From an uncultured Clostridia bacterium (GTDB lineage Bacteria; Bacillota; Clostridia; Oscillospirales; Ruminococcaceae), in NCBI GenBank assembly GCA_946563605.1, contig CAMNVW010000003.1, forward strand, positions 1 through 37,318: 37,318 nt of DNA, given 5' to 3'. Below the pieces are notes generated by a model. It was given only the letters and a program-made list of their open reading frames with translations, was not told the origin of the DNA and searched no databases. Position numbers and translations under genes: made by a program. The number at the start of each line of letters is the position of its first letter. Position 1 is the first letter of the stretch. Positions 2,989-7,442 of this stretch are shown here, piece by piece.

Positions 2989-4398
2989 ATGCTCCAGCAA
3001 ATTTTAGAGTCCGCCGTACAGCTGCTATGGGGACGCGGCACTGTTGCCTTCACACTGCTGTGCGGCGTTTATTTTACCGTATGCACAGGTTTCCTGCCCA
3101 TTTCGCCCAAGCGATTGCCCACTGTACTGCGCAAAACGGTCGGTTCCCTTTTTGAGCCGCGCAAAAAAAATGACGGTGTCTCACCGTTTGCCGCTGTCAG
3201 CACCGCTTTAGGCGGCACAATGGGCGTCGGCAACATTGTCGGCGTTGGCGCCGCCCTCGCGCTCGGTGGCGCCGGCAGTATCTTTTGGATGTGGGTGGGT
3301 GCATTTTTAGGGATGGCAACCAAATACATGGAGGTGTTCCTTGCGGTACAGTGGCGGCAAAGGGATCCAAGCTCCTGCTCCAACAAAGGCGGTCCCATGT
3401 ACTATATCTCTCAAGGGATTCCGAATCTGCTCGGAAAGATCCTCGCCGTTATTTTCTGCGTTTTCTGTGCGCTCGCAAGCTTTACCAGCGGCAGCATGAC
3501 CCAGACAAATGCCATCGCACAATCGCTGATGGAAAGTTTCTCCGTTTCCCATCTCCTCTGCGCGATTGTCCTCACCGTTCTCTGCGGCTGGGTGCTGTCC
3601 GGTGGATGCGACCGTGCGGTCAAGACCTGCTCAAAGTTAGTGCCGGTGATGTCGCTGTTTTATCTGCTCGGCTGCGGCTATATCCTCTTTCGTTTCCGGC
3701 AGAATATTCCGACCGCCTTTCACGAGATATTCGCACAGGCGTTTTCCCCCAGCGGAACGGTCGGCGCAGCTGCCGGATTTTTTACAGCTATGCGGGTCGG
3801 TATTTCCCGGGGAATATTTACCCACGAAGCCGGATTGGGCAGCGCATCGATTGCGCACGCGTGCAGTGACGCCAAAACTCCCGTCGAGCAGGGCTTTTGG
3901 GGAATCTTCGAGGTGTTCTGCGACACCATTTTGGTCTGCACCGTCACTGCTGTCGCCATCCTCATCAGCGGTGTACCGCTCTCCCCCTCTTCGGCGCAGG
4001 CAGCTTTCGGCATGGTGATGGGCGACGCCGGCGAAAAGATGCTTTCTGTTGCAATCTCGCTGTTTGCCTTTGCGTCGGTCATCAGCTTTTGTCTGTACGG
4101 TCAGCGCTGTGTGGAATATCTCTTTCCAAAGAGCAAGACGGCGATGCGCTGTTACCGGATGTTATTTCTCGCCGGCTGTGCGACGGGCTGTTTTACCCAA
4201 TTATCCCCCGTTTTTCTGCTGGCAGACCTGCTCAACGCCTGTCTGCTGATTCCAAATCTTGTCGCGCTGGTGATTCTCTCACCCCAGGTATTCTCTAAAA
4301 CCAAAGATTATTTTCTAAAAGGAGGAAATAAGGTATGTTCATCTGTTCGGTCAAACCCAAAGACTTCATCAAACGGCTTCTTCTCATCGCTCTCCTGA
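2989..4398 (+). CDS. Alanine/glycine:cation symporter (AGCS) family protein
   Basis: ATG at 2989 with RBS AAGGAGG; FTALGGTMGVGNIVGVGAALALGGAGSIFWMWVGAFLGMATKYMEV is AGCS-like. Confidence 0.92.
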   Translation: MLQQILESAVQLLWGRGTVAFTLLCGVYFTVCTGFLPISPKRLPTVLRKTVGSLFEPRKKNDGVSPFAAVSTALGGTMGVGNIVGVGAALALGGAGSIFWMWVGAFLGMATKYMEVFLAVQWRQRDPSSCSNKGGPMYYISQGIPNLLGKILAVIFCVFCALASFTSGSMTQTNAIAQSLMESFSVSHLLCAIVLTVLCGWVLSGGCDRAVKTCSKLVPVMSLFYLLGCGYILFRFRQNIPTAFHEIFAQAFSPSGTVGAAAGFFTAMRVGISRGIFTHEAGLGSASIAHACSDAKTPVEQGFWGIFEVFCDTILVCTVTAVAILISGVPLSPSSAQAAFGMVMGDAGEKMLSVAISLFAFASVISFCLYGQRCVEYLFPKSKTAMRCYRMLFLAGCATGCFTQLSPVFLLADLLNACLLIPNLVALVILSPQVFSKTKDYFLKGGNKVCSSVRSNPKTSSNGFFSSLS

Positions 4399-4832
4399 TT
4401 TTGATTACTGTCTGCGCCATCCGCTTTCTCAAAAAAGACGCGGCAAAGGACCCCGCTTCACCGCTGCCCTCTATTTCCCAAACGCACGACATCCACGCAC
4501 CCGACAACACCTCACGCATTACATTCCTCAACAACTTCGGCTGGAAAGTTTCCAAGGAACCCATCGAGGTTGTGCAGGTGGTGATCCCCGAAACCTTCGG
4601 GGACGTCTATCAAAATTACAACGCCATCCAAACCGAGCAGGGCTTTGACCTGAGCAAATTCAAAGGAAAGCAGGTCACGCGCAGCACCTATTCGGTGCTG
4701 AACTACCCCGAACAGAAGGAGTATATCCGCGCAAACCTTTTGATTTATAACGATGAGATTATCGGTGGCGATATTTGCTCGGTCTATGCCAAAAACGGGT
4801 TTATGCACGGCTTTGCCTTCCCGACAAAGTAG
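4335..4832 (+). CDS. DUF4830-like membrane-anchored protein
   Basis: RBS AAAGGAGG upstream, N-terminal TM helix, FLNNFGWKVSKEPIEVVQVVIPETFGDVYQNYN region. Confidence 0.8.
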   Translation: MFICSVKPKDFIKRLLLIALLILITVCAIRFLKKDAAKDPASPLPSISQTHDIHAPDNTSRITFLNNFGWKVSKEPIEVVQVVIPETFGDVYQNYNAIQTEQGFDLSKFKGKQVTRSTYSVLNYPEQKEYIRANLLIYNDEIIGGDICSVYAKNGFMHGFAFPTK

Positions 4833-4958
4833 TATTTCCTAGGAAATATTGAAAAAGCGAGGTTTTTCGGAGGGAAACTTAGAGAGTTTTAGCGTATTTC
4901 CCAGGAAATAGGGGAATTTACAGGAAATTTCCGAAGGATTTCCTGGGAAATATTCTGT

Positions 4959-4992
4959 CCCCATCCGCAGTATTGTGCGGATGGGGATTTTG
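4959..4992 (+). terminator. Rho-independent terminator
   Basis: CCCCATCCGCAgtattgTGCGGATGGGG followed by ATTTTGTGTTT. Confidence 0.7.
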
Positions 4993-5055: not shown

Positions 5056-5985
5056 TTGCAAGCATACAAAATAGGAGACTACATCCGCAAGAATCGAGAA
5101 GAAAAAGGCATCAGCCAAAAACAGCTTTGCAGCGGTATTTGTGTCCATACAACGTTGTCACGCATCGAAATGGGCAGGCAGGAACCATCCTATTACATTG
5201 TACAGGCACTTTTGCAAAGGCTCGGTATCTCGGAAGAAGGAGTTCAAATTCTGATGGGACCGCAGGAATTCGAGCTGGCTGAATTGCAGCGTGAAATTGT
5301 GGTAGATAATGCCGGCAAGCGTTTTTTAGACGCTCTGGAAAAAATCCACAGACTGGAACAATTTCCTCAAGCGCAGACCGAACCGCTGATTCAGCAGTTT
5401 TTGCTGCGGTCACGCGTGCTGTCCGGTTACGTAGAAAACGGCGAGCACAAAAAGTACGATTATCAAACACAGCGGCAGATGCTGATTCAGGCACTGGAGT
5501 TGACCTGTCCAGAGATTACAATGGACAATATCGGCAGTTTTTTGCTGAGCGAAAATGAGGCAAAAATCATCAACCAAATTGCGATTACTCATTCCGAAGA
5601 AGGAGATCGCAGACAGGCGATTGAGATTTACCGTCAGCTGCTGAAATATGTGCAGGATCACTTTGCAAATACTGAGGTCAACGAGCGTTTGCTTCCGCTG
5701 ACCGCCTACAACTACTCTCGTCTGTTAGGGCGGGAACAGCGGTATGAGGAGGCTATTGAGATTGCCGAACTTGGCAGAAAATCTTGTGTAAACAGTAACA
5801 AATGTCAAATGTTGGGTTCTCTACTGTTTAATATTGCCTGTTGTCTGCATGAACTAGGCGATGATGAAAAATGTAAAGAGTTATTGATTGATGCTTACCA
5901 TATCAATAAAGTGATGGAGCGTCCAAAAAGTTGTAAAGTGGTGCAGGAATATGCCAAAGAAACCTTTGGCATGGAGATTCTCTAA
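5056..5985 (+). CDS. XRE-type HTH regulator with C-terminal TPR-like repeats (RRNPP/Rgg/PlcR-like)
   Basis: TTG start with AGGGGGGG RBS; HTH IGDYIRKNREEKGISQKQLCSGICVHTTLSRIEMGRQEPS; helical-repeat C-terminus; TATAAT at 5027. Confidence 0.88.
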   Translation: MQAYKIGDYIRKNREEKGISQKQLCSGICVHTTLSRIEMGRQEPSYYIVQALLQRLGISEEGVQILMGPQEFELAELQREIVVDNAGKRFLDALEKIHRLEQFPQAQTEPLIQQFLLRSRVLSGYVENGEHKKYDYQTQRQMLIQALELTCPEITMDNIGSFLLSENEAKIINQIAITHSEEGDRRQAIEIYRQLLKYVQDHFANTEVNERLLPLTAYNYSRLLGREQRYEEAIEIAELGRKSCVNSNKCQMLGSLLFNIACCLHELGDDEKCKELLIDAYHINKVMERPKSCKVVQEYAKETFGMEIL

Positions 5986-6200
5986 GCAACTTCTCCTTCT
6001 GGATCATCAATATAATCGCAAGGCATGATTCCAGACTCTCCGCCGTTTTCCGGCGGCTGGGGGGTCTGGTTTTGTGTACCCTCGTCTTCCATCGGCGGTG
6101 GGGTCGGCAGGTCGGTCGGTTTGGTTTCTTCGGCAAAAGCGGTCATTGGGATGGCGGCAAGCATCAAAGCGGCAAGCAAAGCAACAAATGTTTTTTTCAT
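5982..6200 (-). CDS. Small secreted peptide precursor (72 aa), candidate signal propeptide
   Basis: Signal peptide MKKTFVALLAALMLAAIPMTAFA then Pro/Glu-rich tail ending CDYIDDPEGEVA; RBS AAAGGA upstream; own promoter. Confidence 0.75.
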   Translation of the reverse strand: MKKTFVALLAALMLAAIPMTAFAEETKPTDLPTPPPMEDEGTQNQTPQPPENGGESGIMPCDYIDDPEGEVA

Positions 6201-6243
6201 AAAAAATCAAATCCTTTCTAAAATGGTTGTCGCGACTACTTAC

Positions 6244-6273
6244 ACTATAAGCATAAAGCTTTCTGTTTGTCAA
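6244..6273 (-). promoter_or_regulatory. Promoter for secreted peptide gene
   Basis: Minus strand TTGACA (6268-6273), 18 nt, TATAGT (6244-6249). Confidence 0.65.
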
Positions 6274-6316
6274 TAGACATTTCACGCACACAAAAGTGTG
6301 CGTGAAATGCCTATTG
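6271..6316. promoter_or_regulatory. 21-bp inverted repeat between divergent promoters (candidate operator)
   Basis: CAATAGACATTTCACGCACAC-aaaa-GTGTGCGTGAAATGCCTATTG, 20/21 paired. Confidence 0.7.
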
Positions 6317-6342
6317 CTTTCTTTAGAAAAATCGGGTATGAT
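6314..6342 (+). promoter_or_regulatory. Promoter for secreted-protein genes
   Basis: TTGCTT (6314-6319), 17 nt, TATGAT (6337-6342). Confidence 0.65.
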
Positions 6343-6388
6343 GGATACAAGGAGCTCCTGAAAATTAAATTAAAGGAGAGATTCATTT

Positions 6389-6811
6389 ATGACGAATCTG
6401 AAAAAACTGTTTGCAGCCGCTATGGCAACCGCAATGCTGGCAACCATGAGCACAGGTGCGTTTGCTGCAAGCGCAAAAGACCCTGCTGGTTTACAGGAGC
6501 TCGGTGATAAATACGGAATCACTGTAGAATATGTAGGAGAAAGAGAAGGCGCACCTGTTTACGAGATTGAGGATTTAGAAAAATTCAACGAGATTATCGC
6601 AAATCAGAAACTTTCTGGAAGGGCTTCTTGTCAGCATGACTGGTTTTATATTTGGACAACCAAAGATCAGCAATGCATCCGCAATTCAAGAAATCATCAT
6701 ACTTATGCACAAAAATTAGAAAAGTGTAACAAGTGCGGTGTAATTATGAATACGGGAGAATGGGAAATCTGGGATTGCCCATCTGGCTGCCGCAAGAGCG
6801 ATTATCTTTAA
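6389..6811 (+). CDS. Small secreted protein with CQHDWFY...CxxC tail
   Basis: RBS AAAGGAGA; signal peptide ending AFAAS; C-terminal CQHDWFYIW...CNKCG. Confidence 0.85.
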   Translation: MTNLKKLFAAAMATAMLATMSTGAFAASAKDPAGLQELGDKYGITVEYVGEREGAPVYEIEDLEKFNEIIANQKLSGRASCQHDWFYIWTTKDQQCIRNSRNHHTYAQKLEKCNKCGVIMNTGEWEIWDCPSGCRKSDYL

Positions 6812-6849
6812 ACAATATTAGCATATGTCATTAGGATAGAGGTGTAAAA

Positions 6850-7374
6850 ATGAAGAAAAAATTACTGGCATCTATCTTATTATCAGCAATGCTGTTAAGC
6901 GGTATGCAGGTTTTTGCTCAGAAATTGGATGCTCCAGTCGCTTCAGAGGAAGATTTGATGACGTTCTCGGGAATTGAATTTGAAAAATCTTCCAAAGATG
7001 GAACGCTTATCTATAAAATCTTGGAGAGTTCCAAGGAGGGTTCCGAAGATATTTACCAAAAAGCCCTTGAGGAAAATAACCGGCGAATCGAAAAACTTTG
7101 GGATGAAAACGCTCTCTCCAAGTTTGCGGAAAAAGAAAAATTAAATATTGACTTTAACAAGGCGAATTATGGTTTGGTTCAGTTTAACTGCACCGTGTCC
7201 GATATTACAGTTGATGAGCTTTCATCGAAACTGAAACATCAGGTCATCAAGAAAACGGACAAAAGTCATCAGCACGACTGGATATACTTTGATGTTACCG
7301 ATCAAAATAAAGAGAACAAACTGTTCCGCCATTGCCAGACCTGTGAAAAGTGGCAGGCATATCACCTTGATTAA
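6850..7374 (+). CDS. Small secreted protein with HQHDWIY...CxxC tail
   Basis: Signal peptide MKKKLLASILLSAMLLSGMQVFAQ; HQHDWIYFDV...CQTCEKW; 38 nt after preceding gene with no terminator. Confidence 0.85.
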   Translation: MKKKLLASILLSAMLLSGMQVFAQKLDAPVASEEDLMTFSGIEFEKSSKDGTLIYKILESSKEGSEDIYQKALEENNRRIEKLWDENALSKFAEKEKLNIDFNKANYGLVQFNCTVSDITVDELSSKLKHQVIKKTDKSHQHDWIYFDVTDQNKENKLFRHCQTCEKWQAYHLD

Positions 7375-7405
7375 CACGAAAAAATAAATTCACCCACAAG
7401 CAAGT

Positions 7406-7442
7406 AAGGACATCCTCTCGGATGTCCTTACTGCTTTTTTTA
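7406..7442 (+). terminator. Terminator
   Basis: TAAGGACATCctctcGGATGTCCTTA then T-rich tract. Confidence 0.75.

Follow-up and report, generated by a model that had tools for sequence, protein, structure and literature searches.

Cell-to-cell signalling is little known in the dominant Clostridia of the gut. The subject of this analysis is a locus at positions 5056-7374 of a 37,318-nucleotide stretch of DNA (the window; GenBank contig CAMNVW010000003.1) from Negativibacillus, a genus of little-studied gut bacterium. The locus encodes a regulator, a convergent 72-amino-acid (aa) product and, divergent from the latter, a tandem pair of small secreted proteins termed HDW1 and HDW2. Judged from sequence comparison and structural modelling, it very probably represents an RRNPP-type peptide-signalling cassette of the PlcR/TprA branch, with the divergent secreted-protein operon as its output. 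This assessment draws on the family and fold of the receptor, on the conserved pairing of receptor and predicted propeptide, and on the conserved geometry of a candidate operator and its promoters. The receptor, the 72-aa open reading frame (ORF), the two tandem secreted ORFs and the palindrome described in a first-pass annotation of the window are all present as described; the 4-nt overlap of the receptor and propeptide stop codons and the placement of the -35 boxes 4 bp from the palindrome core are additional to that annotation. Together with its relatives, the locus provides concrete candidates, in Negativibacillus for triples of receptor, peptide and operator and in Faecalibacterium for pairs of receptor and peptide, as well as a set of secreted proteins that these systems would control.

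The receptor, whose start codon is TTG, matches HTH_3 at its N-terminus (E=3.6e-10) and tetratricopeptide repeats (TPRs) as well in Pfam, where it also scores 51.2 bits against RNPP_C (PF18768; curated cut-off 26.5). Its AlphaFold model, built from a 52-sequence alignment, has a predicted local distance difference test score (pLDDT) of 94.9 and a predicted template modelling score (pTM) of 0.92, and shows a helix-turn-helix (HTH) bundle with a helical repeat domain behind it. The earlier description of the regulator as HTH plus TPR-like is thus upheld by a modelled fold of HTH plus TPR-like superhelix, nearest to PlcR, and such an N-terminal HTH with a C-terminal TPR superhelix is the architecture by which the cytoplasmic RRNPP receptors are recognized. 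In a PDB profile search, PlcR ranked first among solved relatives, with an alignment spanning the full length (E 6e-25), while further relatives cover the HTH or the TPRs only and Rgg entries the HTH only; likewise, the top Foldseek match was PlcR with PapR7 and DNA (3u3w, E 1.2e-8), followed by ComR and, lower, by Rgg2 and NprR. With PlcR far better by both profile and fold, the receptor does not belong to the Rgg branch. In the profile alignment, with residues counted by hand, Asn173 and Asn219 of the receptor align with Asn159 and Asn201 of PlcR, which we take to be PapR contacts. Asparagine occupies position 173 in 41 of 52 homologues and position 219 in 43 of 52, and the receptor clade of the window keeps both residues throughout (5/5). 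The receptor thereby has the conserved TPR-domain asparagine of RRNPP proteins, a residue that binds the peptide backbone in the RNPP family (PMC3601957).

A scan of GTDB genome contigs yielded 55 receptor loci. Oscillospirales and Lachnospirales account for nearly all of them, with Negativibacillus massiliensis, Faecalibacterium hattorii, F. prausnitzii, Pseudoflavonifractor, Butyrivibrio and many metagenome-assembled genomes (MAGs) represented. A strict propeptide rule was applied, which asks for a ribosome-binding site and a signal-like N-terminus in a convergent ORF 40-120 aa long, within -12 to +20 nt of the receptor stop. Such an ORF is present at 33 of 56 receptor ends, vs 1 of 328 ends when the remaining large ORFs of these loci serve as controls, and so regulator homologues do co-occur with the peptide gene, as the first-pass annotation had required. 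Under a looser rule, 35 receptors have a propeptide, 26 of these with an identical 4-nt overlap. Near-identical loci (L082/L083) are included in these counts.

The 72-aa ORF itself begins with a Sec-type leader, MKKTFVALLAALMLAAIPMTAFA, and is otherwise rich in Pro, Glu and Asp; by a hydrophobicity rule, the adjacent small propeptide gene with a Sec leader that is typical of RRNPP systems is present. Among homologue loci, propeptides are 47-91 aa long; members of a close pair share leader and pro-region and differ over the final ten residues. In Faecalibacterium (L088/L121), identity is 25/26 in the leader, 34/35 in the middle and 6/10 in the tail; for L127/L129 the values are 24/26, 17/19 and 3/10, and for a pair of copies from a single Lachnospiraceae genome (L111/L113) they are 26/26, 13/39 and 2/10. 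A conserved leader with a variable C-terminal ten residues is the pattern to be expected of pheromone precursors. The genome that contains the window has a second cassette, on contig C90, with a receptor 52% identical and a propeptide 86% identical to the window's. The two propeptides differ in their final residues (DDPEGEVA vs NGPVGESD; the C90 tail reads ..PCDYINGPVGESD), and the DNA of the two cassettes is similar from mid-propeptide to the operon promoter, both flanks having diverged. Leader and promoter thus look as if homogenized between the cassettes, each receptor apparently retaining its own tail.

The palindrome between the divergent promoters, to which the first-pass annotation had drawn attention, scored 18, and none of 300 dinucleotide-preserving shuffles of the intergenic region came near this value (maximum 10). 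The window's receptor clade (support 100/100) comprises the window, C90, two N. massiliensis loci and one Negativibacillus MAG, and all five loci possess both the propeptide and a 32-bp operator core with the consensus CATTTCACGCA-N10-TGCGTGAAATG, whose half-sites are conserved and whose centre is variable. In 5/5 of these loci, exactly 4 bp separate the core from an outward-facing -35 box on either side. On the propeptide side, the five promoters have TTGACA, an 18-bp spacer and TATAGT or TATGAT, and the window's promoter matched the consensus at 11 of 12 positions in a scan. On the operon side they have a TTG-type but non-consensus -35 box (5/5), a 17-bp spacer and TATGAT, TATTAT or TAATAT. 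With at most three mismatches allowed, the operator occurs twice in the 1.73-Mb genome (87% complete), each time at the same position in its cassette, and in the two relatives from the genus with cassettes of this clade the remaining operator matches are at the level of a reversed-pattern control. A dispersed regulon was rejected, the genome having no further operator within three mismatches. Also set aside were a terminator, although the scan flagged the palindrome as terminator-like, since it sits between divergent promoters with no real T-run behind it and has a variable centre between conserved half-sites, and an RNA element, there being no Rfam match.

In the mechanism proposed, the 72-aa propeptide would be exported by Sec and then processed, and a short peptide derived from its C-terminus (within ..PCDYIDDPEGEVA) would re-enter the cell via an oligopeptide permease and bind the TPR domain of the receptor. 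The receptor would lie as a dimer on the 32-bp palindrome between the two outward-facing -35 boxes and would control both promoters, that of the propeptide gene as feedback and that of the divergent secreted-protein operon. We infer all of these steps, along with the identity of the peptide and any function of HDW1 and HDW2. PF00496, a family of oligopeptide-binding proteins, has eight matches in the genome.

As to the direction of control, we lean towards activation of both promoters by the peptide-bound receptor, because the conserved core lies just 5' of both -35 boxes, where it stops 4 bp short instead of covering them, because the operon -35 boxes are weak in all five loci, and because PlcR, the nearest solved relative, is an activator. 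The opposite sign, with apo-receptor repressing between the -35 boxes until imported peptide releases it, is a variant within the same best explanation, such that the two confidences overlap, and is the less probable of the two. It would resemble TprA/PhrA of the pneumococcus, in which a repressor is relieved by the peptide, and it would suit both the outer palindrome, which extends into the TTG of both -35 boxes, and a near-consensus propeptide promoter that would need no activator.

Whichever the sign, the receptor and propeptide might form a signalling pair beside which the divergent secreted proteins are mere neighbours. That the operon genes differ among the five loci, with HDW1 at one only, would fit this; yet the operator and the operon-side promoter geometry stay constant while the genes change, and signal-peptide proteins lie on the operon side in 5/5 loci, such that mere adjacency is improbable. 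More doubtful still is a role for the 72-aa product as a small secreted effector (e.g. an antimicrobial) under control of a receptor that senses another ligand. In its favour, several tails are acidic and Gly-rich, unlike many known RRNPP pheromones, which are hydrophobic, and the products measure 47-91 aa; against this, the product's location, size, leader and variable tail suit an RRNPP propeptide, its pairing with an RNPP_C receptor is kept across many genera, and no candidate immunity gene is conserved beside the ORF. The first-pass view of the product as a pheromone precursor is supported. Several points do weigh against a signalling cassette with the operon as its output. By the strict rule, 23 of 56 receptors lack a recognizable convergent propeptide; leaders were scored by a home-made hydrophobicity rule, not SignalP; the near-consensus propeptide promoter could function without an activator; the operon gene set differs between clade loci, HDW1 having no homologue at any other receptor locus; and more operators may be missing given the incompleteness of the genome. 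The 20 propeptide-less rows are dispersed over the receptor tree, as would be the case for losses or unrecognized forms.

The assignment of the divergent operon as regulon output, also made in the first-pass annotation, derives from the position of the operator and is to that extent conditional. HDW1 and HDW2 have only the HDW motif in common. The single clear relative of HDW1 is from another Negativibacillus, where it lies on an unlinked contig; HDW2 has homologues at both N. massiliensis receptor loci, with identities of 62% and 47%. Hence, of the co-occurrence anticipated between the regulator and the HDW proteins, the part concerning HDW2 stood, as HDW2 and operon partners recur beside two other receptor loci, and the part concerning HDW1 did not. 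At one N. massiliensis locus, a 92-aa protein with a leader-like N-terminus is encoded by a separate gene before HDW2, and at the other the two are fused as a 248-aa protein (L026:5688-6434 against L024:5383-6310), which suggests that they act together. At C90, a 246-aa secreted protein is 61% identical to one in an N. massiliensis operon, and the first divergent gene (L022:2995-3571) encodes a fragment of a trypsin-like protease that lacks a leader and any clear in-frame start and looks like a remnant. Apart from this fragment, HDW1, HDW2 and most other operon proteins match no Pfam or NCBIfam family above cut-off, in line with the earlier remark that the secreted pair was not recognized as a described system. 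AlphaFold gave a weak model for HDW2 (pLDDT 68, from an alignment of 3 sequences), which has no PDB fold match at E<=0.001; weaker matches were regarded as noise, and assignment of the HDW proteins to a known family was rejected. The Cys/His motifs suggest metal binding.

Among known systems, PlcR/PapR of the Bacillus cereus group is a relative in full-length sequence and fold and likewise has an HTH plus TPR receptor, an adjoining Sec-exported propeptide and a palindromic operator; however, the receptors are only about 22% identical in the fold alignment. The papR gene lies downstream of plcR on the same strand, and the PlcR regulon is large and dispersed. Here and in the homologues, in contrast, the propeptide gene is convergent, and the operator was found at the cassettes only; with its convergent rather than co-directional propeptide, the locus is PlcR-like and not a PlcR/PapR system. 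By description it also resembles TprA/PhrA and TprA2/PhrA2 of Streptococcus pneumoniae, which combine a PlcR-branch receptor with a propeptide gene; phrA is convergent with tprA, and TprA controls a lantibiotic cluster. TprA/PhrA and TprA2/PhrA2 provide two systems per genome, with possible cross-talk (PMC13361665). As in Rgg/SHP group III of streptococci, where the signal gene is convergent with and overlaps the end of the receptor gene (PMC13361665), the receptor and propeptide genes here overlap at their ends; however, Rgg receptors rank below PlcR in the profile and fold comparisons, and SHPs are short and hydrophobic, without a long Sec leader plus pro-region. Finally, the locus is like the candidates of the RRNPP_detector survey, which drew on complete genomes and paired a TPR receptor of 250-500 aa with an adjacent small Sec-secreted propeptide (PMC10075063).

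No system from Ruminococcaceae, Oscillospiraceae or Lachnospiraceae is named in the main text of that survey; the main texts of two evolutionary studies (PMC9765709 and PMC12700828) name none from Ruminococcaceae or Lachnospiraceae, nor does that of a structural study name one from Oscillospiraceae. No paper pairing RRNPP with Faecalibacterium was found in the literature searched. Thus, the RRNPP kind is well known, and the receptor-propeptide subfamily described here is provisionally considered undescribed. It is rather likely to be a widespread group of PlcR-branch pheromone systems in Oscillospirales and Lachnospirales of the gut (Negativibacillus, Faecalibacterium, Pseudoflavonifractor and others), in which receptor and propeptide genes converge and overlap, peptide tails diversify fast and outputs are specific to each clade; in Negativibacillus the output would be a bidirectionally controlled operon for secreted Cys/His-motif proteins, and elsewhere possibly an ABC exporter. 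A plasmid origin was rejected, as there are no close relatives on plasmids (<28% identity). One 40% match lies on an unannotated 'Bacteriophage sp.' faecal scaffold, which is probably bacterial DNA since its propeptide is identical to that of F. hattorii locus L086. Two scans of viral contigs found nothing, and a phage origin was likewise rejected.

Table 1. Position, strand and basis of the features assigned to the cassette and its borders
Feature	Position	Strand	Basis
Terminator-like hairpin 5' of receptor gene, setting the receptor apart from its neighbour	4957..4988	+	Pattern scan
Receptor/regulator, PlcR-like, 309 aa	5056..5985	+	Pfam, PDB profile search, AlphaFold model, Foldseek
HTH of receptor	about 5083-5238 (aa 10-61)	+	
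RNPP_C/TPR domain of receptor	about 5368-5925 (aa 105-290)	+	
4-nt overlap of convergent genes (receptor TAA 5983-5985, propeptide TAG 5984-5982)	5982..5985	.	Sequence
Predicted propeptide gene, 72 aa	5982..6200	-	ORF, conservation, tail variability
Propeptide leader, aa 1-23	6132-6200	-	
Candidate signal-bearing C-terminal tail of propeptide, PCDYIDDPEGEVA	5985-6023	-	
Propeptide promoter: -35 TTGACA (6273-6268), 18-bp spacer, -10 TATAGT (6249-6244)	6244..6273	-	Scan, five-locus geometry
Candidate palindromic operator, conserved core 6278-6309	6271..6316	.	Shuffle test, five-locus comparison, genome-wide pattern search
Operon promoter: -35 TTGCTT (6314-6319), 17-bp spacer, -10 TATGAT (6337-6342)	6314..6342	+	Five-locus geometry
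HDW1, 140-aa secreted protein with Cys/His motifs	6389..6811	+	ORF
HDW2, 174-aa secreted protein with H-x-H-D-W ... C-x2-C motif	6850..7374	+	ORF, homologues at two N. massiliensis receptor loci
Terminator-like hairpin 3' of operon	7403..7432	+	Pattern scan

Other receptor clades have palindromes of different kinds. A second type, GTGTTATT-N4-AATAACAC-like, occurs at L092:5877-5904, L099:3950-3977 and 5253-5280, L107:5893-5920 and L090:4749-4776; it lies about 90-110 bp 5' of the receptor gene at three loci and, at L099, also directly 5' of the propeptide gene. A search of sister clades for GTGTTATT..AATAACAC gave matches at four loci only, and none in shuffled sequence. A long, near-perfect palindrome with arms of 20-22 nt is found 5' of the propeptide gene at L127:7128-7179, L128:3683-3734 and L131:7130-7177, and is perhaps the own operator of this Lachnospiraceae receptor clade.

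Also outside the window's receptor clade, about 16 loci encode a 537-aa ABC exporter (PF00664 + PF00005) within a few kb of the receptor, 47-89% identical over the full length (L023:1532-3142, L084:9800-11401, L108:4232-5830, L089:2207-3796, L110:7159-8769 and about eleven more), and this exporter may be what the receptor regulates at those loci. In other clades too, the receptor has small, Cys-rich secreted proteins nearby that match no Pfam family (L103:1423-1740, L104:7177-7527 and L133:7468-7797). In the window itself, the 5' neighbour of the cassette, at 4335-4832, codes for a membrane-anchored protein of 165 aa with a DUF4830 match (PF16112, E 8.5e-34).
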